Below are positions 5,470 through 13,136 of a stretch of 64,000 bases of DNA, piece after piece. The notes below the pieces were generated by a model. The model did not search any database, was not told the DNA's origin, and saw nothing but the letters and a program-made list of their open reading frames with translations. Each line of letters opens with the position of its first letter. Position 1 is the stretch's first letter. This DNA is from an uncultured Balneola sp. GTDB lineage: Bacteria > Bacteroidota > Rhodothermia > Balneolales > Balneolaceae. Both the position numbers and the translations under genes were made by a program. The stretch spans positions 186,779 to 250,778 of the forward strand of contig CAJXQC010000001.1 in NCBI GenBank assembly GCA_913058495.1, read 5' to 3'.

Positions 5470-6257
5470 TGAGCCAAATAATTACGCTTACTACCGATTT
5501 TGGTCTTCAGGATCAATATGTAAGTTCGATGAAGGCGATAATTCTGGGTTTAGCTCCTGATGTTCGCCTCATTGATATTTCACATGATATTCCAGCTCAG
5601 GATATTATGGCGGGAGCATGGGTAATTCGCAATTCAGCTTTTCTTTTTCCAAAGAACACCGTGCATCTGGTAGTTGTGGATCCCGGTGTAGGCACGGAGC
5701 GTCACCCGATCGTTCTAAAAGTTAATGATCAATATTTTGTGGGTCCTGATAACGGAATTTTTTCGCTTTTCTACAGCGAGTTTGAGGTGGAAGCTGTAAA
5801 GCTGAATAAACAAAAATACTGGCGAAAAGAACGGTCTAGAACGTTCCATGGAAGAGATATTTTTGCTCCGGTAGCAGCTCATCTTATTAACGGGGTTTCA
5901 CTAAAAGAACTTGGCGACCCTATTAAAGATCTGGTTACTTATCATTGGGCGGTTCCAATTGGGGATAAAGACGGTCTTCAAGGTTGGGTAGTTCATATTG
6001 ATCGCTTTGGAAATCTGATCACAAATATTTCTGAAGATCTTATTGAAGATATGATCGGGAGGAGAAAGGTCCGGATCTATGTTGGTAATACCATGATCGA
6101 TCATTTAGTGAATACATTCGGAGATGTTGAGGAAGGCGATCCGGCCGCATTTATAGGAAGTTCTGGAATGCTTGAAATCGGTATAAATAAAGGAAATGCC
6201 GCAAAGCTTTTAAGTGTTGATAAAGGCGCACAGGTGTCGTTAGTGCTTCAAAAATGA
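5469..6257 (+). CDS. SAM hydrolase / DUF62 family protein
   Basis: Member of the DUF62 family, which splits S-adenosylmethionine into adenosine and methionine using water; fluorinase and chlorinase are specialised relatives. 262 residues. The N-terminal core shows ITLTTDFGLQDQYV, the motif VVDPGVGTERHPI carrying the conserved Asp and Arg, FVGPDNG, and HGRDIFAPVAAHL with the conserved His. The Asp-Arg-His set marks ordinary hydrolases rather than halogenases. It is translationally coupled to dnaN; I see no functional reason for that pairing. Confidence 0.9.
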   Translation: MSQIITLTTDFGLQDQYVSSMKAIILGLAPDVRLIDISHDIPAQDIMAGAWVIRNSAFLFPKNTVHLVVVDPGVGTERHPIVLKVNDQYFVGPDNGIFSLFYSEFEVEAVKLNKQKYWRKERSRTFHGRDIFAPVAAHLINGVSLKELGDPIKDLVTYHWAVPIGDKDGLQGWVVHIDRFGNLITNISEDLIEDMIGRRKVRIYVGNTMIDHLVNTFGDVEEGDPAAFIGSSGMLEIGINKGNAAKLLSVDKGAQVSLVLQK

Positions 6258-6318
6258 GTACGTAACACCAAAGCAGTAATCACGTACTGTTTCCCCGAAT
6301 AAAAGACGGAAAGGACAT

Positions 6319-7125
6319 ATGAGCTTTGAATTAAAATCTCCGGAAAACGAAAGAGCAGCTATTCAGGTACCGAAAGAAATTTCGAATCTGACCAAACCCT
6401 TTAGCGGAACTTTGTGCTCTCAGGATGGTGATGAATACGATGTAAAAAATAACATCATCGACATTTTAGGTGGACAGCCTGATTTCTCAAGTTTAGCTTC
6501 ATATACCAATCATTGGAAACTGACTGCTACTATTTACGAGGAGATATGGAGAAAGCGTTCTCTTTCTTTATTAACAGGCGAAGACTTTCCGATCGAAAAA
6601 GAACATGAATTGCTTATCGAGTGGACAGAGCCCAAAGAAAACGGATTATATCTCGATTTAGGCTGTTCAACAGCGCTTTATGGCAGAGCATTAAAGGCTG
6701 CACAATCCAAAGCTGATGTTGTTGGTTTAGACTTTTCTATGCAAATGTTAGAAGAGGCCAGACTAAAAGCTGAAGCGGATGAAACTAATCTTTTCTTTGT
6801 AAGAGCAGATGGTAAAGAGATGCCGTTTTTCAGCAAAATTTTTGACGGAATAGTGATGGGAGGGACGCTAAATGAGCTCACTGAAGAATTAAAAGTTCTG
6901 TATGAAGCTCGCAGAGTCTTGAAAGAGGATGGAGTTCTTTTTATGATGCACTTGATAAAAGCCGATGCCTGGTACGGAAGATTACTTCAGGAGTCGATGG
7001 GAATTGGAGGAATCAAATTCTGGACTAAGGATGAAAGCAACAAGCTCTTCAAACAAGCCGGCTTCAAAGTTGAAGAACAGATTACAAGAGGAATTGTCTG
7101 TTTTACAAGATTGAGAACTAATTAG
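6319..7125 (+). CDS. Class I SAM-dependent methyltransferase
   Basis: Rossmann-fold methyltransferase of unknown substrate, 268 residues. Residues 30-55 resemble a degenerate Trm112-like zinc knuckle (LCSQDGDEYDVKNNIIDIL) that has lost its cysteines. SAM motif I is LDLGCSTALYGRAL, motif II VVGLDFS, and motif IV is around GIVMGGTLNEL. This is the layout of UbiE/BioC-like Methyltransf_11 proteins. A good Shine-Dalgarno (GGAAAGGA) sits before ATG 6319. Its stop (7123-7125) abuts the stop of argS with no gap, so the two converge. Confidence 0.85.
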   Translation: MSFELKSPENERAAIQVPKEISNLTKPFSGTLCSQDGDEYDVKNNIIDILGGQPDFSSLASYTNHWKLTATIYEEIWRKRSLSLLTGEDFPIEKEHELLIEWTEPKENGLYLDLGCSTALYGRALKAAQSKADVVGLDFSMQMLEEARLKAEADETNLFFVRADGKEMPFFSKIFDGIVMGGTLNELTEELKVLYEARRVLKEDGVLFMMHLIKADAWYGRLLQESMGIGGIKFWTKDESNKLFKQAGFKVEEQITRGIVCFTRLRTN

Positions 7126-8781
7126 TCACATATTTTCGGGTGCAGAAATTCCAAGGATAGTCAATCCATTTCGAAGAACCTGTGCCGTTGCTTTGGCGAG
7201 CTCGATTCTAGCCAGTGCCAGATCTTCATCCACACCAATAATTCTGCAATCGTGATAGAAACCGGTAAATGCTGAAGCAACATCATTCAGGAAATTGATC
7301 AAGCGATGTGGTTCACGTGCATTAGCTGCACCTGCAACCATTTCAGGAAAACGAAGAATGGTTTTGATCAGGCCTTCTTCTGAATCATGTTTCAGCAAAG
7401 AAAGATCTGCTTCTTTGGAAAACGAATATTCTTCCTCAGCTTTACGCAGAATACTGGCAATGCGAGCATGAGCATATTGAAGATAGAATACCGGATTTTT
7501 ATCTCCGGCTTCTTTGGCTTGAGCGATATCAAATTCCAGATGTGTATTTGGAGATCTCATTAAAAAGAAGAAACGGGTGACATCTGACCCCACTTCATCC
7601 ATAAGCTCATCAAGTGTTACAAAATTCGCTTTTCGGGTGCTCATTTTAAAAGGTTGGCCGTCTTTGACGATCGTCACAAACTGATAGATCACCACGTCTA
7701 CTTTTTCTTTGTCGTAACCCAAAGCAGAAATTCCTGAAAGCACGTCCGGATAAGTGGCTATGTGATCGGCACCAAATACATCCAAACAAAGATCATATCC
7801 ACGATCCAGCTTATTCATGTGGTAAGCGATATCGGGAAGTCTGTAAGTCGGTTCTCCCGTGCTTTTGATCAAAACGGTATCTTGTTCTTTACCAAATTCG
7901 GTTGTTTTAAACCAAACAGCTCCGTCTTTGTCATAGACCAATTCTTTCTCACGAAGCTTTTCAACGGTGGTATCTATGGATCCATCCGCATACAAACTAT
8001 GCTCGTTGAAGAAGGATTCCATATTGATGTTCATTCGCTGAAGCGTATTACTGATATCAGCAAAAATGGCTTCTTCTGCTTTTTCTTTGAAGGGTTTCCA
8101 ATCTTCTGTATTACCAGACAACTCAGCATTTTCTTTCGATAATTCTTCCGCTATATCGCGAATATATTCTCCTTCATATCCTCCTTCGGGGAATTCAAAT
8201 GCTTTGCCTAATTTTTCTAAATATCGAGCTTGTACACTTTGTCCCAGAACACGCATTTGTCGGCCGGCATCATTGAAGTAATATTCTCTGTCAACCTCGG
8301 CTCCTGTCCACTCTAACAATCTTGCAACGGTGTCCCCGAGCACTGCATTTCTTCCATGTCCGACGGTAAGTGGTCCGGTTGGATTTGCACTTACAAACTC
8401 TACCAATACTTTTTTACCTGAGTGTTCATCTGTTCTTCCAAAACCGGATCCAGCATCCAGAATACTCTGCAATTCATCATACAAGTAGTCCTCAGCAAAG
8501 CGAAAGTTTATAAATCCGGGGCCTGCAATTTCTACAGAGGAAATTTTCTTTTCATCGAAATTCAATCCATCAATGATCTGTTGTGCAATAGCTCGTGGAT
8601 TATTACGAAGTGGTTTTGCCAGCATCATAGCCACATTGGTGGACGCATCGCCGTGGCTGGAGTCTTTTGGAGCTTCCGTCTGGATTTCAGGTAGTTCTTC
8701 TAGATCAAATTGTTGTAAAGAGTCAGCGATTATTTGCTGGAGGTAGTCGTTCATTCTAAGATTCATTTCTGGATTCAGCAT
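7126..8781 (-). CDS. argS: Arginyl-tRNA synthetase
   Basis: Charges tRNA-Arg. 551 residues, class I synthetase. The HIGH-box region is FVSANPTGPLTVGHGRNA (here VGHG), and the KMSK-like loop is KMSTRKANFVTLDEL. The C-terminal anticodon-binding domain contains QYAHARIASILRK and ends NGLTILGISAPENM, both typical of ArgRS. Three in-frame ATGs are possible (8781, 8766, 8754); the family-like N-terminus MNDYLQQIIADSL suggests 8754 could be the true start. None has a clear Shine-Dalgarno. Confidence 0.96.
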   Translation of the reverse strand: MLNPEMNLRMNDYLQQIIADSLQQFDLEELPEIQTEAPKDSSHGDASTNVAMMLAKPLRNNPRAIAQQIIDGLNFDEKKISSVEIAGPGFINFRFAEDYLYDELQSILDAGSGFGRTDEHSGKKVLVEFVSANPTGPLTVGHGRNAVLGDTVARLLEWTGAEVDREYYFNDAGRQMRVLGQSVQARYLEKLGKAFEFPEGGYEGEYIRDIAEELSKENAELSGNTEDWKPFKEKAEEAIFADISNTLQRMNINMESFFNEHSLYADGSIDTTVEKLREKELVYDKDGAVWFKTTEFGKEQDTVLIKSTGEPTYRLPDIAYHMNKLDRGYDLCLDVFGADHIATYPDVLSGISALGYDKEKVDVVIYQFVTIVKDGQPFKMSTRKANFVTLDELMDEVGSDVTRFFFLMRSPNTHLEFDIAQAKEAGDKNPVFYLQYAHARIASILRKAEEEYSFSKEADLSLLKHDSEEGLIKTILRFPEMVAGAANAREPHRLINFLNDVASAFTGFYHDCRIIGVDEDLALARIELAKATAQVLRNGLTILGISAPENM

Positions 8782-8805
8782 TAAGATAAGGCTGATTCAA
8801 TTAAG

Positions 8806-8823
8806 AATTAAGAATTATTCAAT
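8806..8823. repeat. Left arm of an 18-bp perfect inverted repeat framing the S23-type gene
   Basis: AATTAAGAATTATTCAAT, the exact reverse complement of 9193-9210. The arm continues (8824-8831) into the last codons of the four-helix-bundle gene. The 26 bases 8806-8831 occur again, inverted, at 31099-31124. Confidence 0.95.
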
Positions 8824-8825
8824 GA

Positions 8826-9191
8826 TCAATGTTTCTTTCTAATTGATTTTGAAGAAGTGATCTTAATCTTTCCAAGTATTGCCAAAATTTCTTCAATTTC
8901 AATTAGCAATGATTCTACCATTTTTGATTCTAAAACTTCGGCGTCTCTTAATAATCTTAACCAATATTTAGTTTCTCTAGCTTCTTTATACGAAATAGAA
9001 ATCTTATGAATAAAATCCTTTTTTGATTCAGCACCTATGGCCTCTTCTGTATTAGCACCTACTGAAGTTCCACTTCTTAGAACTTGCCGTGCTATATCAT
9101 ATTGATTAGTAGAATTAGATAAGTATTTATTGAGCTTTACAATTCTTACAGCAAATTGATAAGTCTTATTAAGGATGATATTCTTTTTCAT
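8826..9191 (-). CDS. Four-helix-bundle protein of the S23 (23S rRNA intervening-sequence protein) family
   Basis: 121 residues with the family signature: an early KTYQFAVRIVKLNKYL helix, ARQVLRSGTSVGANTEEAIG, DFIHKISISYKEARETKYWLRLL and a final helix. Relatives are encoded inside intervening sequences of 23S rRNA genes in Leptospira and Coxiella, or as stand-alone genes; the biochemical role is unknown. A longer frame runs upstream into radC (to 9269), but the homology begins at ATG 9189-9191. The start and stop lie within a few bases of the two arms of an 18-bp perfect inverted repeat, so gene plus arms form a 405-bp unit between radC and argS. No Shine-Dalgarno is visible; the repeat arm occupies that position. 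Confidence 0.88.
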   Translation of the reverse strand: MKKNIILNKTYQFAVRIVKLNKYLSNSTNQYDIARQVLRSGTSVGANTEEAIGAESKKDFIHKISISYKEARETKYWLRLLRDAEVLESKMVESLLIEIEEILAILGKIKITSSKSIRKKH

Positions 9192-9192
9192 A

Positions 9193-9210
9193 ATTGAATA
9201 ATTCTTAATT
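9193..9210. repeat. Right arm of the 18-bp inverted repeat
   Basis: ATTGAATAATTCTTAATT, reverse complement of 8806-8823 with no mismatch. On the minus strand it supplies the last codon (AAT) and stop (TAA) of radC and ends two bases before the ATG of the S23-type gene. Confidence 0.95.
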
Positions 9211-9921
9211 GAGCTCGCCTTGCGAGCGTAGAGAAACAAAATCATAGCCTGCAATAATAATATGATCATCTATCGGGATGCCGAGTAGTTTTCCGGATTC
9301 GGAGATTCTTTTGGTTAGTTGAATATCTGCAGTAGAGGCTTTTGCATTTCCTGATGGATGATTGTGGAATAAAAGAATGGAATTGGCTTGATGAACAACT
9401 GCTTGGCGCATTACCTCGGCGGGCTCAACGATGGTGGCGTTACTTCCGCCTGAACTTATTTGCTGAAATCCGGTGAGCACTTTTTTGTGATTCAGAAAAG
9501 CAACAATGAACACTTCTTTGGTTAAGTGACGGAGTTTAGGGCCAAAGAAGGCGACCGCATCTTCCGGAGAAGTTACTTGCACCTCTTCACCTAAACCGGC
9601 TACCTGAATTCTGCGGGCAAGTTCAAAAGCAGCTTCCAGTGTAATAGCTTTTACTTTCGCGATGCCGGGAATTACCCGAAGTTCGCTCCACTGTTTTTTG
9701 ATGAGTGAATGGAGTCCGTTGAAATGATCGAGGAGAGCCCTTGAAGTTTCGATCACATTCATTTTTTTGGTTCCGGTTCGCAAAAGAATGGCAAGAAGTT
9801 CAGCATCAGAAAGAGAGCCGGCTCCATATTTTATAAGCTTTTCCCGGGGTTGTTCATCGGGACGCATATCTTTAACGGTTCTGTTCAGGAAATCTTCTGA
9901 AGAAAATGATTCTGTATTCAT
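9205..9921 (-). CDS. radC: RadC family JAB-domain protein
   Basis: RadC-type protein, 238 residues. The N-terminal helix-hairpin-helix region includes RMREKL-like PREKLIKYGAGSLSDAELLA. The C-terminal JAB domain carries the metal-binding signature HNHPSGNAKASTAD. Despite the name, a repair function is not well supported in the literature; a metal-dependent nuclease or peptidase-like role remains open. ATG start at 9919-9921. Its last codon and stop (Asn-TAA) lie inside the inverted repeat that frames the next gene, which suggests that the repeat insertion reset the 3' end. Confidence 0.93.
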   Translation of the reverse strand: MNTESFSSEDFLNRTVKDMRPDEQPREKLIKYGAGSLSDAELLAILLRTGTKKMNVIETSRALLDHFNGLHSLIKKQWSELRVIPGIAKVKAITLEAAFELARRIQVAGLGEEVQVTSPEDAVAFFGPKLRHLTKEVFIVAFLNHKKVLTGFQQISSGGSNATIVEPAEVMRQAVVHQANSILLFHNHPSGNAKASTADIQLTKRISESGKLLGIPIDDHIIIAGYDFVSLRSQGELN

Positions 9922-9978
9922 GGCGTATAGTTTTTTGCCAAGTAAGACAGATTGGAAGGGGATTCCTTACAAAAAATT

Positions 9979-10036
9979 ATGAATACTGAATATCGAACAA
10001 GGAATATAGAATGATGAAGTGTTGGTTATTGGATAT
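9979..10036. repeat. AT-rich GAATAT/GGATATTGG-type intergenic repeat
   Basis: Between radC and the XRE gene lie degenerate GAATACTGAATATCGAA and GGTTATTGGATATTGG units. The second resembles, in inverted orientation, the sequence after topA (17394-17440). These belong to a class of short AT-rich intergenic repeats and do not code. Confidence 0.5.
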
Positions 10037-10238
10037 TGGAAGAGTATTCCAGAATATCACCGGGTTGGCAATCGAGGACTTCACAAATAGCTTCAAGCGT
10101 TGAGAAGCGAATTGCCTTGGCTTTTCCGGTTTTTAAGATGGAAAGATTGCTCATGGTCACACCCACTTGTTCAGAAAGTTCGGTGAGGCTCATTTTTCGC
10201 TTAGCTAGCATAACATCAAGATTTACGATTATTGCCAT
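10026..10238 (-). CDS. XRE-family helix-turn-helix regulator (YozG-like)
   Basis: 70-residue DNA-binding protein that is essentially only an HTH domain: MSLTELSEQVGVTMSNLSILKTG is the HTH core, followed by AIRFSTLEAICEVLDCQPGDILEY, the classic end of Cro/CI-like small regulators. It is last in a three-gene operon after two DUF2975 membrane proteins, with only 4 bases between it and the preceding gene. HTH genes of this type are regularly paired with DUF2975 in other bacteria, which suggests a membrane protein/regulator unit. Likely autoregulated through dyads at 11608-11631 or 11660-11696 (inference). Confidence 0.88.
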   Translation of the reverse strand: MAIIVNLDVMLAKRKMSLTELSEQVGVTMSNLSILKTGKAKAIRFSTLEAICEVLDCQPGDILEYSSNIQ

Positions 10239-10242
10239 GATG

Positions 10243-10968
10243 TTAAATGGTTAGGTCTTGTTCTTCCTGAAGTGTGTTTCCCCTTTGAATCACGTTACCA
10301 AGAAATATAAATATAGCAGCAATGAAGAGTTTGAGTTGGGATCCTCCGCCTGTAATTGATTCGCCTAAATAATACGTTTCATTTAAAAAAATCATTAGTC
10401 TGCCATAAATTAACATATCAAGAAAAAAGCTCAATAGAAGAAGCGCAGTAAAATAGTTAAAGGTTTTTCCGATTTCCTTACTGAATATTCTATTTTGTTT
10501 TTTTTCATTAATTCTAAGCAAGGCGATTAAGAAAACGCATAGAATAAGCATACTCCCAAAGCCATAGAAAAACTCCAAATAAATCTGTGATTTCCAAAAT
10601 GATTCCGATTCGTCATTTATTAAAAAGGAGGGATGACTTATTAAACCAGTCATTTTACTGAAGCCAAAATTTGATTCAAGCACTTTTTCTTCGGTAACAT
10701 CTGTGGGAGTACTTTCTAAAGCTAAAACAGTGACATAATTTATTTTAGGATTTGAAGCGTCTTCAAGATAGGCTTTTGAAACTTTTAGATACTTTGTATC
10801 AAATTCTAATCGCTCGAGTTTAGAAGTACTTTCAATATTTAAAACCTTAGAAAGGTCATTGTATTCGTTGTATCCATTCCAAAATATAAAAACAGATATC
10901 AACGTAAATAAGGCCAAAATCAGATTATTGAATTTTTCTTCCGGTATAATATTCTTCGTTAAATCCAT
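10243..10968 (-). CDS. DUF2975 membrane protein (longer paralogue)
   Basis: 241 residues. An N-terminal membrane segment (FNNLILALFTLISVFIFW) is followed by a polar extracytoplasmic region of about 90 residues. Three more membrane segments follow, and it ends RGNTLQEEQDLTI, the DUF2975 C-terminal signature. Function of the family is unknown. It lies 3 bases downstream of a second DUF2975 gene and 4 bases before the XRE regulator. The two paralogues are very divergent in their loops, which could point to a heteromeric sensor; that is inference. Confidence 0.8.
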   Translation of the reverse strand: MDLTKNIIPEEKFNNLILALFTLISVFIFWNGYNEYNDLSKVLNIESTSKLERLEFDTKYLKVSKAYLEDASNPKINYVTVLALESTPTDVTEEKVLESNFGFSKMTGLISHPSFLINDESESFWKSQIYLEFFYGFGSMLILCVFLIALLRINEKKQNRIFSKEIGKTFNYFTALLLLSFFLDMLIYGRLMIFLNETYYLGESITGGGSQLKLFIAAIFIFLGNVIQRGNTLQEEQDLTI

Positions 10969-10971
10969 TTT

Positions 10972-11604
10972 TTACACCGTTAGTTTTTGTTCTTCATGTA
11001 TCTTAGTTGCTTCCCGAAAGACGAAGCCCAGAAGCATAATTAACAGACCAAAAAATATTGAGTTCACTGATTCAAAATCAGGTTTAAAATCTAAGGCCGG
11101 TTCAATCTGAAGAGTAGAAAAAATATGAACAACAAAAAAAGCATGACCGAATGCAACTAAAGCCTGAACCACTAAAAGACCACCCATTGCTATTAACCGT
11201 CGGCTATTTAAAGGGTTAAATGGATTGTCTTTTGTAACTGATTTTAGAATTCTTGAAAGTAAATAGAAGAATGCGACAAGAATTATCATTTTAAGAAAAC
11301 GAATTGCAATCAGTTGAAGATTTTTTGTTGCAAAACTGTTTTTTGAGTTGTTTACCAGAAACCGCCCTTTCACTTGCAGTGGCATCAAATAATGTTCGTC
11401 GTTTACTAAGAAGTCTGTAGAAATAAATTGCTCTGAATCAACTTGAACCATAGGATCAGAATAAGGGGCGTTGATGAAGAAGCTTACTCCTCCGGTAAAA
11501 TATGTACTGTTAATGCTTAAAAATGAGATTATTAAACCTATAATAATGATCCAGACATTATAATATAGAAAATGAGCTAACGACCAGTCTTTTTTAAGTT
11601 TCAT
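10972..11604 (-). CDS. DUF2975 membrane protein
   Basis: 210 residues with four predicted membrane segments (residues about 15-35, 95-115, 135-155 and 180-198). It has a periplasmic loop rich in polar residues and the DUF2975 ending FVFREATKIHEEQKLTV. It is the first gene of the DUF2975-DUF2975-XRE operon. ATG is at 11602-11604 with no Shine-Dalgarno; instead an 8+8-bp dyad sits directly before the start codon. Confidence 0.8.
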   Translation of the reverse strand: MKLKKDWSLAHFLYYNVWIIIIGLIISFLSINSTYFTGGVSFFINAPYSDPMVQVDSEQFISTDFLVNDEHYLMPLQVKGRFLVNNSKNSFATKNLQLIAIRFLKMIILVAFFYLLSRILKSVTKDNPFNPLNSRRLIAMGGLLVVQALVAFGHAFFVVHIFSTLQIEPALDFKPDFESVNSIFFGLLIMLLGFVFREATKIHEEQKLTV

Positions 11605-11607
11605 AAA

Positions 11608-11631
11608 TACTGAACTTGTTAATGTTCAGTA
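11608..11631 (-). promoter_or_regulatory. Inverted repeat just upstream of the DUF2975/XRE operon
   Basis: TACTGAAC (11608-11615) and GTTCAGTA (11624-11631) form a perfect 8-bp dyad with an 8-base spacer, four bases before the start codon. The size suits an operator for a dimeric XRE repressor; it could also occlude translation as an RNA hairpin. Confidence 0.5.
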
Positions 11632-11659
11632 CAAATAAAACAAATGATTAGTTGAAATG

Positions 11660-11696
11660 CAATAATTATTTATTGATAAACAATAAATAATTATTG
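11660..11696. promoter_or_regulatory. Perfect 16+16-bp AT-rich dyad upstream of the DUF2975/XRE operon
   Basis: CAATAATTATTTATTG (11660-11675) and its exact complement CAATAAATAATTATTG (11681-11696) are separated by ATAAA. The dyad lies 56-92 bases before the operon start. It contains no G/C clamp or T-run for a normal terminator, so an operator or promoter-overlapping site is more likely. Confidence 0.5.
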
Positions 11697-11750
11697 ATTA
11701 AAGAAATTCTATAAAATGAATTGGTAGAAGAGGATTGCTATTTACGACCC

Positions 11751-11790
11751 CCACCTTTGTTTCCTCCCCCGAGGGAGGAAACAAAGGTGG
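11751..11790. repeat. 18-bp-stem hairpin (REP-like palindrome)
   Basis: CCACCTTTGTTTCCTCCC (11751-11768) pairs perfectly with 11773-11790 around a four-base loop. It lies in the gap between amn and the DUF2975 operon. It is one of several C-rich/G-rich palindromes in the window (14212-14230, 39794-39811, 49353-49370, 49491-49504, 49959-49970). The rest of the 11605-11954 gap holds the two dyads listed separately and nothing that codes. Confidence 0.8.
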
Positions 11791-11954
11791 TGTGGTTTGG
11801 AGTTAGGCTATCTAATCAAATCACTTTGATTTTTCGAGTAGCAAGAATGGATACAAGGAAAAGGTAACAGGTTCTTTACATGACAAGAGGGCTAAACTTT
11901 GTTCTAATTTCGAGATTTAAGTTCGATGCCCTCACTTCATATTCAATATTCTGA

Positions 11955-13136
11955 TTATTCTCCGCTTCCCATCAACGGTTCGTTGAAAGCTCGAATGCTT
12001 GAGTTTGGAAGTCCGTCCGGATGAGTTTGTTTTACCATGTCGATAGTTTCAATCACGATCTCCAAATGTTTTTCCTTAGAGTTTTGGTAGAACGCTTGTG
12101 CTGCTCCCGAAAGCTTTGGTTTTCCGTGAAGGGGTTTATCACTTACACAAAGTAAAGTGGCATGTGGAACGCGATATCTGAATCCATTAGTAGCAACCGT
12201 TGCGGATTCCATATCCACAGCTAAACTTCTGCTTTGATGGATCTTTTCAACAGTATCTTTTTTAGAGAACTCCCAGTTTCTGTTGGCAGTAGTAAATACG
12301 GTTCCAATGCGATGATTTAATCCGTGATTATCCAGAACTTGCTTCAGATATAAATTGAGTATGTAGTTTGGAATTACAGGTATTCCGATCGGAAACAGAT
12401 CATCCAATAAACGATCATCTCTCATATAACCGTTTGCAAGTACAAAGTCTCCGATCTCCTGGTGATTTCGTAGCCCGCCGCAATGTCCAACCATGATCAT
12501 GGCATCAGGACGAAGAACCGAAACATGATCGGTAATAGTTTTCGCATTCGAAGGTCCAACCCCGATATTGATCAAAGTAATACCTTTGTTGTCATCTAAC
12601 TTGTGGTGGAAAGCAGGCATCTGAACACCTTCTCTTACAGGTTTTACACAATCAGGAAATTTTTCCAGAAATACCTCAACATGCATATCATAGTTAGTGA
12701 ACAAAATATATCGCTGAAAATCATGAGCGCTGGTTCCAGTGTAATGCTGAAGTCGGTCTAATGAAATGTCAGTTCGTTCAGGACTAAAAAGGAAAAGCTT
12801 TTTCTTAGTGATATCCCAGTTACTTTCATCGGTATGATCCAATAAAAGAGGATCGTTCAGTTCTATAACATCCCGCGATGGTTCAATTTTGATATCCGCA
12901 TCTTTTTCCAGAAGACGAAGAATCTCACGCTCTAGATAAGATCTTAGTGCTTTAGGTTGAGCGAGTTCCCCTTTTATGATCGGGTTGTGCTCTGACCAAG
13001 CTCGTTCCACTAACATTTTGGGATATTTACCGGAGTCGTAAATTTTCTCCATCAGATCGCAGGCTTTTTCCGTAGCTTTCATACGTTCTTCGAGAGTGGA
13101 AAAATCAGAATGTGATAATAGAAGTGAATCGGGCAT
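11955..13136 (-). CDS. amn: AMP nucleosidase
   Basis: Hydrolyses AMP to adenine and ribose 5-phosphate. 393 residues. The C-terminal half has the nucleoside phosphorylase fold: INIGVGPSNAKT, MVGHCGGLR, then the purine-binding segment AVDMESATVATNGFRYRV followed by LCVSDKPLHGKPK. The N-terminal half is the Amn-specific regulatory domain. The ATG (complement of 13134-13136) shares two bases with the ATG of the divergent Nudix gene, so no space for a promoter exists between them; a start at Met19 (13082) would relieve this. Confidence 0.93.
   Translation of the reverse strand: MPDSLLLSHSDFSTLEERMKATEKACDLMEKIYDSGKYPKMLVERAWSEHNPIIKGELAQPKALRSYLEREILRLLEKDADIKIEPSRDVIELNDPLLLDHTDESNWDITKKKLFLFSPERTDISLDRLQHYTGTSAHDFQRYILFTNYDMHVEVFLEKFPDCVKPVREGVQMPAFHHKLDDNKGITLINIGVGPSNAKTITDHVSVLRPDAMIMVGHCGGLRNHQEIGDFVLANGYMRDDRLLDDLFPIGIPVIPNYILNLYLKQVLDNHGLNHRIGTVFTTANRNWEFSKKDTVEKIHQSRSLAVDMESATVATNGFRYRVPHATLLCVSDKPLHGKPKLSGAAQAFYQNSKEKHLEIVIETIDMVKQTHPDGLPNSSIRAFNEPLMGSGE

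Follow-up and report, generated by a model that had tools for sequence, protein, structure and literature searches.

An S23-family gene between perfect inverted repeats

Between the protein-coding genes radC and argS lies a 405-bp unit that is built like a 23S rRNA intervening sequence (IVS), which raises the question of what such a unit is and what its complementary ends are for. The first-pass annotation of the window (the whole stretch of 64,000 nucleotides analysed here) had described an S23-family gene between perfect 18-bp inverted arms, and both parts of this description held. In profile searches, the 121-aa protein scored 89.5 bits against PF05635 (cut-off 33.8 bits) and 98.8 bits against TIGR02436, identifying it as a genuine member of the S23/23S-IVP family. 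Moreover, its AF2 model (pLDDT 92) has four helices that form a four-helix bundle, and the best PDB matches to this model were 2rld (TM 0.88) and 2gsc (TM 0.78), with 4dwl also matching (TM 0.74).

The downstream arm reads AATTAAGAATTATTCAAT, and the upstream arm is its exact reverse complement (Table 1); the pairing stretches to 24 nt at 92% (8806-8829 with 9187-9210). A chance origin of the inverted repeat was ruled out, as 40 dinucleotide shuffles of the window gave a mean of 0.0 inverted 18-mer pairs within 450 bp. The S23 ATG lies one base inside the gene-proximal edge of the upstream arm, the end of the TGA is two bases away from the downstream arm, and the upstream arm overlaps the final codons of radC together with its stop codon (9205-9207). 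The downstream arm sits within a longer 7-bp-periodic array (CAATTAAG AATTAAG AATTATT CAATGAT CAATG), and the arm has a lag-7 excess of 0.33. This array contains two AG units; five AG units, which are typical of clean members of the class described below and not of all members, were not matched anywhere within the window. In total, we conclude that the radC-argS locus, where the S23 gene is bracketed by inverted arms, is a degenerate and somewhat decayed member of this class, with the 7-bp period kept and two AG units.

The proposal that the unit is an IVS-like cassette outside rRNA was similarly upheld as a matter of architecture, i.e. the S23-type open reading frame (ORF) and the complementary ends are present, the location is not inside 23S rRNA, and Rfam gave no match in positions 6000-12000. 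A defence system was considered and dropped because PADLOC gave no match. Elsewhere in the window, a perfect 18-bp hairpin with a 4-nt loop (CCACCTTTGTTTCCTCCC / GGGAGGAAACAAAGGTGG; 11751-11790) is probably a terminator.

Table 1. Features of the radC-argS locus and a related element in the window
Feature	Position	Strand	Evidence or remark
S23 / 23S-rRNA-IVP family gene, 121 aa	8826..9191	-	PF05635, TIGR02436, AF2 four-helix bundle
Upstream arm (5' of S23 gene), perfect 18-bp inverted repeat	9193..9210	-	Covers radC stop; extends to 9187 at 92%
Downstream arm, perfect 18-bp inverted repeat	8806..8823	+	
7-bp-periodic array including downstream arm	8798..8831	+	Largely also upstream of argS in relatives with other or no S23
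Palindrome of the same repeat family, gene-less loop	31053..31124		Related element outside the cassette
radC-like gene, upstream context	9205..9921	-	Present in 8/8 genus genomes
argS, downstream context	7126..8781	-	Start may be internal MNDYLQ

Cassettes with different arms in the same genome and genus

The first-pass annotation had named two patterns that would speak against a cassette, namely S23 genes elsewhere in the genome without such ends, and the same radC-S23-argS order with diverged flanks in all relatives. The assembly contains 11 S23 genes, nearly all of which are flanked by close inverted repeats; thus, the ten other genes mostly have such ends, and the sequence is different each time (e.g. 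a perfect 19-bp arm at L014, 18 bp at L017 and 20/23 at L018). A single dispersed transposon with fixed ends was ruled out because the arms are different at every S23 locus. Nor was the second pattern found: the radC-argS gap contains one S23 type in genomes G000 and G001, another type with other arms in the five genomes G002-G006, and no S23 gene in G007. The downstream array recurs in G002-G005 and, partly, in G007. Because it occurs where S23 is different or absent, the downstream sequence at radC-argS is probably older than this cassette, and what is new is probably the upstream arm.

The arm at this locus belongs to a family of dispersed intergenic palindromes whose loops contain no gene, with about 23-30 half-sites in this genome. 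These gene-less palindromes occupy gaps of every orientation, and one with the same arm sequence lies in a convergent gap within the window (Table 1).

In six genomes of the genus, a paa-like operon (L149-L154) contains as many as four S23 cassettes, differing in type and lodged between successive cistrons, and both the S23 type and its presence in these gaps vary by species. In the thiolase-PaaY and paaZ gaps, the cassette is present in some species and absent in others, the gaps being too diverged to fix an insertion point. One relative has retained the cassette with most of the S23 ORF deleted. Of 23 sites in the genus, 11 are sense, five antisense and six divergent, with one further site lacking an orientation call; most of them are common to several species and under purifying selection. 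Pairs of S23 orthologs mostly have dN/dS values of 0.03-0.2, and the gene at radC-argS has a dN/dS of 0.20 relative to its ortholog in G001, a value that rests on seven changes. We conclude that the S23 protein is under purifying selection and that orthologous cassettes are inherited across species.

Inverted flanks with a strict 7-bp period are general

We surveyed about 220 S23 loci in four sets, i.e. the genus itself, the phylum, named genomes that span more than ten phyla, and Gammaproteobacteria. In these sets, the S23 genes are flanked by inverted repeats whose sequence is particular to each locus and whose period is strictly 7 bp. At the 82 loci of the genus, the inverted-repeat score of the flanks averaged 20.0; mismatched S23 flanks gave 13.1 and neighbouring genes 12.7 (Mann-Whitney p 3e-21 against neighbouring genes, with loci that are partly orthologous). 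With mismatched pairs of S23 flanks as the control, the score was 17.5 vs 11.4 at 25 loci of the phylum, 21.1 vs 10.0 at 37 loci of Gammaproteobacteria, and 19.2 vs 10.9 at 77 loci of named genomes, which include one archaeal lineage and were drawn from the best-scoring 80 matches to a canonical S23 alignment rather than at random. On cyanobacterial plasmids, clear heptads were present at three of the five S23 loci that were read. Altogether, an S23 gene framed by inverted heptad arrays is a general architecture, seen at most of the S23 genes sampled, of which we are practically certain. On a plasmid of Pseudanabaena galeata (L342), an S23 gene lies between cas6 and cas4, after a long run of the 7-bp unit AAAGCTA.

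Within 60 bases on each side of the S23 gene, every set showed an excess of matches at lag 7 (0.06-0.18) and lag 14 (0.06-0.14), with at most 0.07 at other lags; in control intergenic regions, neither of these two lags exceeded 0.025. Polarity is evident in the upstream arm, which is AG-rich: G exceeds C in 130 of the 144 arms with a bias, and AG occurs 648 times vs 161 times for CT. Its unit is approximately AGNNNTN, which fits 77 of 153 arms vs nine after shuffling. When exact chains of AG with 7-nt spacing were counted at 139 distinct loci from outside the genus, the distribution showed a second peak, at five units: chains of four, five and six were found 8, 28 and 11 times in the upstream arm and 16, 25 and 3 times in the downstream arm. 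A chain of at least four on either side accompanies 50% of S23 genes vs 2.6% (1/39) of control genes; roughly every second S23 gene sampled has no such chain on either side. A few arrays have a period of 8, and some are homogenised.

Orientation of the cassettes and association with S23 across genomes

The cassettes are mostly sense-oriented and located in short gaps between co-directional genes, a preference that is weaker in the genus of this genome. In co-directional gaps of the three wide sets outside the genus, the sense-to-antisense ratios were 62:2, 18:0 and 18:2. In seven gammaproteobacterial loci (L316, L319, L324, L325 and L327-L329), S23 lies directly upstream of a tRNA gene, apparently at one common chromosomal site.

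AG-heptad arrays (at least ten matches) were present in 44 of 77 gammaproteobacterial genomes with S23 vs 27 of 292 without it (Fisher 4e-18, in a test that ignores phylogeny). Twelve gammaproteobacterial genomes are array-rich with no S23 match over the cut-off, and some genomes with S23 have zero AG-heptad arrays. That PF05635 had overlooked S23 in the array-rich genomes was rejected, as a search of the PF05635-negative ones with TIGR02436 also gave nothing over the cut-off. Four genomes that are rich in AG-heptad arrays and in which S23 was undetected (G208, G457, G406 and G416) may be incomplete assemblies or have another partner. A 1.5-Mb genome, G465, has about eleven copies of a remote S23-like gene on contig C1 (L320, L321), most of them scoring identically; it has no AG-heptad arrays and many matches to the reversed pattern (GA).

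A putative S23 ring on AG-centred heptads and its alternatives

The closest solved relatives of S23, 2rld and 2gsc, have five chains each, and the title of the paper on Xcc0516 (2gsc) speaks of five four-helix bundles. We know of no ligand for either structure. Because the peak at five units, the polarity of the arms and the pentamer suggest it, we infer that the arrays could be ligands of an S23 ring. In this model, the arrays would be recognition sequences of a ring-shaped S23 pentamer, and each subunit would contact one AG-containing heptad of one strand, either in an RNA leader or in single-stranded DNA. The cassette would encode S23 together with its own putative binding sites, the gene-less palindromes would be further sites or derivatives that lost the gene, and the rRNA IVSs would, in the best explanation, be members of the class lodged in 23S rRNA. 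Speaking for this explanation are also the frequent arrays in gammaproteobacterial genomes with S23, the preference for sense orientation, the purifying selection on the protein and the heptamers before the S23 ORF of the Coxiella IVS. Counting against it, the locus studied here has at most two AG units, roughly half of the S23 genes in the sample have no AG chain of four or more, the orientation preference weakens within the genus, a few arrays have period 8, and arrays and S23 occur without each other in some gammaproteobacterial genomes. As a whole, a cassette whose arrays serve as recognition sequences of the S23 pentamer is our leading explanation, and we give it about an even chance; that the arrays are bound by S23 falls a little short of even, and the assignment of one AG to each subunit is more tentative still.

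The first-pass annotation had suggested that the protein or the stem-loop is the functional partner and that the unit might be excised as RNA or DNA. If the arms paired in the transcript and RNase III cut the stem, the S23 cassette would leave a polycistronic mRNA; the rRNA IVS has the same architecture, a terminal stem and excision by RNase III (PMC4990558), the sense orientation is strong between co-directional genes outside the genus, and the predicted RNA fold contains the terminal stem whether taken as the minimum-energy or the centroid structure (z -2.0). However, an RNA helix under selection would be expected to accumulate G.U rather than A.C mismatches, and the arm mismatches in three sets comprise 154 of the G.U type vs 150 of the A.C type and thus carry no signal of selection for an RNA stem; the genus, moreover, has antisense and divergent sites. 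We therefore regard excision from RNA as unlikely. By this measure, the arms of the suggested stem-loop are complementary but lack a signature of RNA folding, and because G.U does not exceed A.C, the complementarity looks like a property of DNA or a side effect of the same binding sequence being present twice. A mobile DNA cassette, in which the inverted heptad arrays serve as ends and the unit is moved or swapped by S23, possibly together with replication or repair functions of the host, would account for palindromes without a gene as non-autonomous copies, as in REP/RAYT or MITE/IS, for S23 genes on plasmids, and for gaps that in different species contain different S23 types and arms or none (radC-argS, thiolase-PaaY and several of the 23 sites). 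Set against this, each locus has ends of its own, no target-site duplication turned up in the gaps compared, which are too diverged to match an occupied site cleanly with an empty one, a catalytic domain beyond the S23 bundle was not found, most sites are common to several species and under purifying selection, and an RVT_1 reverse transcriptase is absent from six of the eight genus genomes, making mobility quite unlikely in our assessment.

Least probable of all, in our view, is that the arrays are simple-sequence repeats of the host, generated by slippage and template switching, and that S23 survives in such gaps with no functional link. Heptamer repeats have indeed been published in papers in which the term S23 is absent (PMC4692102, PMC4679880), arrays occur in genomes without S23, and the exceptions with period 8 and the homogenised arrays fit this origin; it is contradicted by the specificity for S23 flanks compared with neighbour genes, the polarity relative to the S23 ORF, the peak at five units and the association of S23 with arrays at the level of genomes. 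Finally, S23 could be a regulator resembling TRAP, with leader sites of many genes as its regulon and the cassette arms as autoregulatory sites. This explanation overlaps the leading one on binding and differs from it in role. Five AG units lie close to the S23 start codon at many loci, and TAACTGA heptamers just 5' of start codons have been proposed as sites of a post-transcriptional regulator (PMC4679880); the inverted downstream array is left unexplained, however, and the gene-less palindromes of this genome lie in gaps of any orientation. We consider such a role rather unlikely.

The recognition model may unite three puzzles, i.e. the role of S23, the S23 ORFs in rRNA IVSs and the partner of heptameric intergenic repeats, and because five repeat units correspond to five chains in the solved structures, they come down to one question: does the S23 ring bind the repeat? 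That pentameric rings of S23/IVP recognise five AG-centred heptads, and that rRNA IVSs, intercistronic S23 genes and orphan heptameric repeats are one system, is possible and somewhat doubtful. Judged from the genomes compared, the association of S23 with heptads is general and, as far as the open-access literature shows, undescribed; in that literature, we found no paper linking non-rRNA S23 genes to heptameric repeats and none on pentameric Avd.

Comparison with known systems

REP/RAYT and MITE/IS systems resemble the S23 cassette in that inverted palindromic repeats flank a protein gene and that many copies lack the gene; by contrast, S23 has no nuclease or transposase domain, and its ends are locus-specific. 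Similarly, the features of a transposon with terminal inverted repeats, i.e. the same ends on all copies and a target-site duplication, were not found here. The structures 2rld (BT_0352), 2gsc (Xcc0516) and 4dwl, the Avd protein of diversity-generating retroelements (DGR), have the same fold as the S23 model. DGR Avd works with a reverse transcriptase and most genomes of this genus are without one; a resident reverse transcriptase as partner was rejected because RVT_1 is missing in six of the eight, and the two matches in G000 are on other contigs (C39, C41). TRAP, the trp RNA-binding attenuation protein, is a ring that binds regularly spaced AG-containing motifs with a spacing of about 5 nt. 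The proposed likeness of S23 to TRAP is an analogy, as the folds are unrelated, the spacing is 7 nt here, and binding by S23 is putative.

None of the surveyed loci scanned with Rfam had S23 inside rRNA, and the comparison with the rRNA IVS of Coxiella burnetii therefore depends on the published description. This IVS has tandem GACAGAT heptamers before S23p, and its ORF is reported to be degrading and probably not expressed (PMC4990558). As at radC-argS, an S23-family ORF lies between complementary ends with heptamers directly 5' of it, in about 430 nt vs 405 bp; the Coxiella IVS is located in rRNA with an ORF reported as degrading, whereas the cassettes described here lie between protein genes, have locus-specific arms and encode S23 under purifying selection. 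Heptameric intergenic repeats have been described as GGGAATC in Xanthomonas, with about 70 convergent pairs per genome, and as GGGGA(C/T)T in Nostoc (PMC4692102), and as TAACTGA in Beggiatoaceae, Cyanobacteria and Bacteroidetes (PMC4679880), in each case without an established partner protein. Like the arrays studied here, these published repeats are intergenic tandem 7-bp units; the difference is that the arrays described here frame S23 genes.
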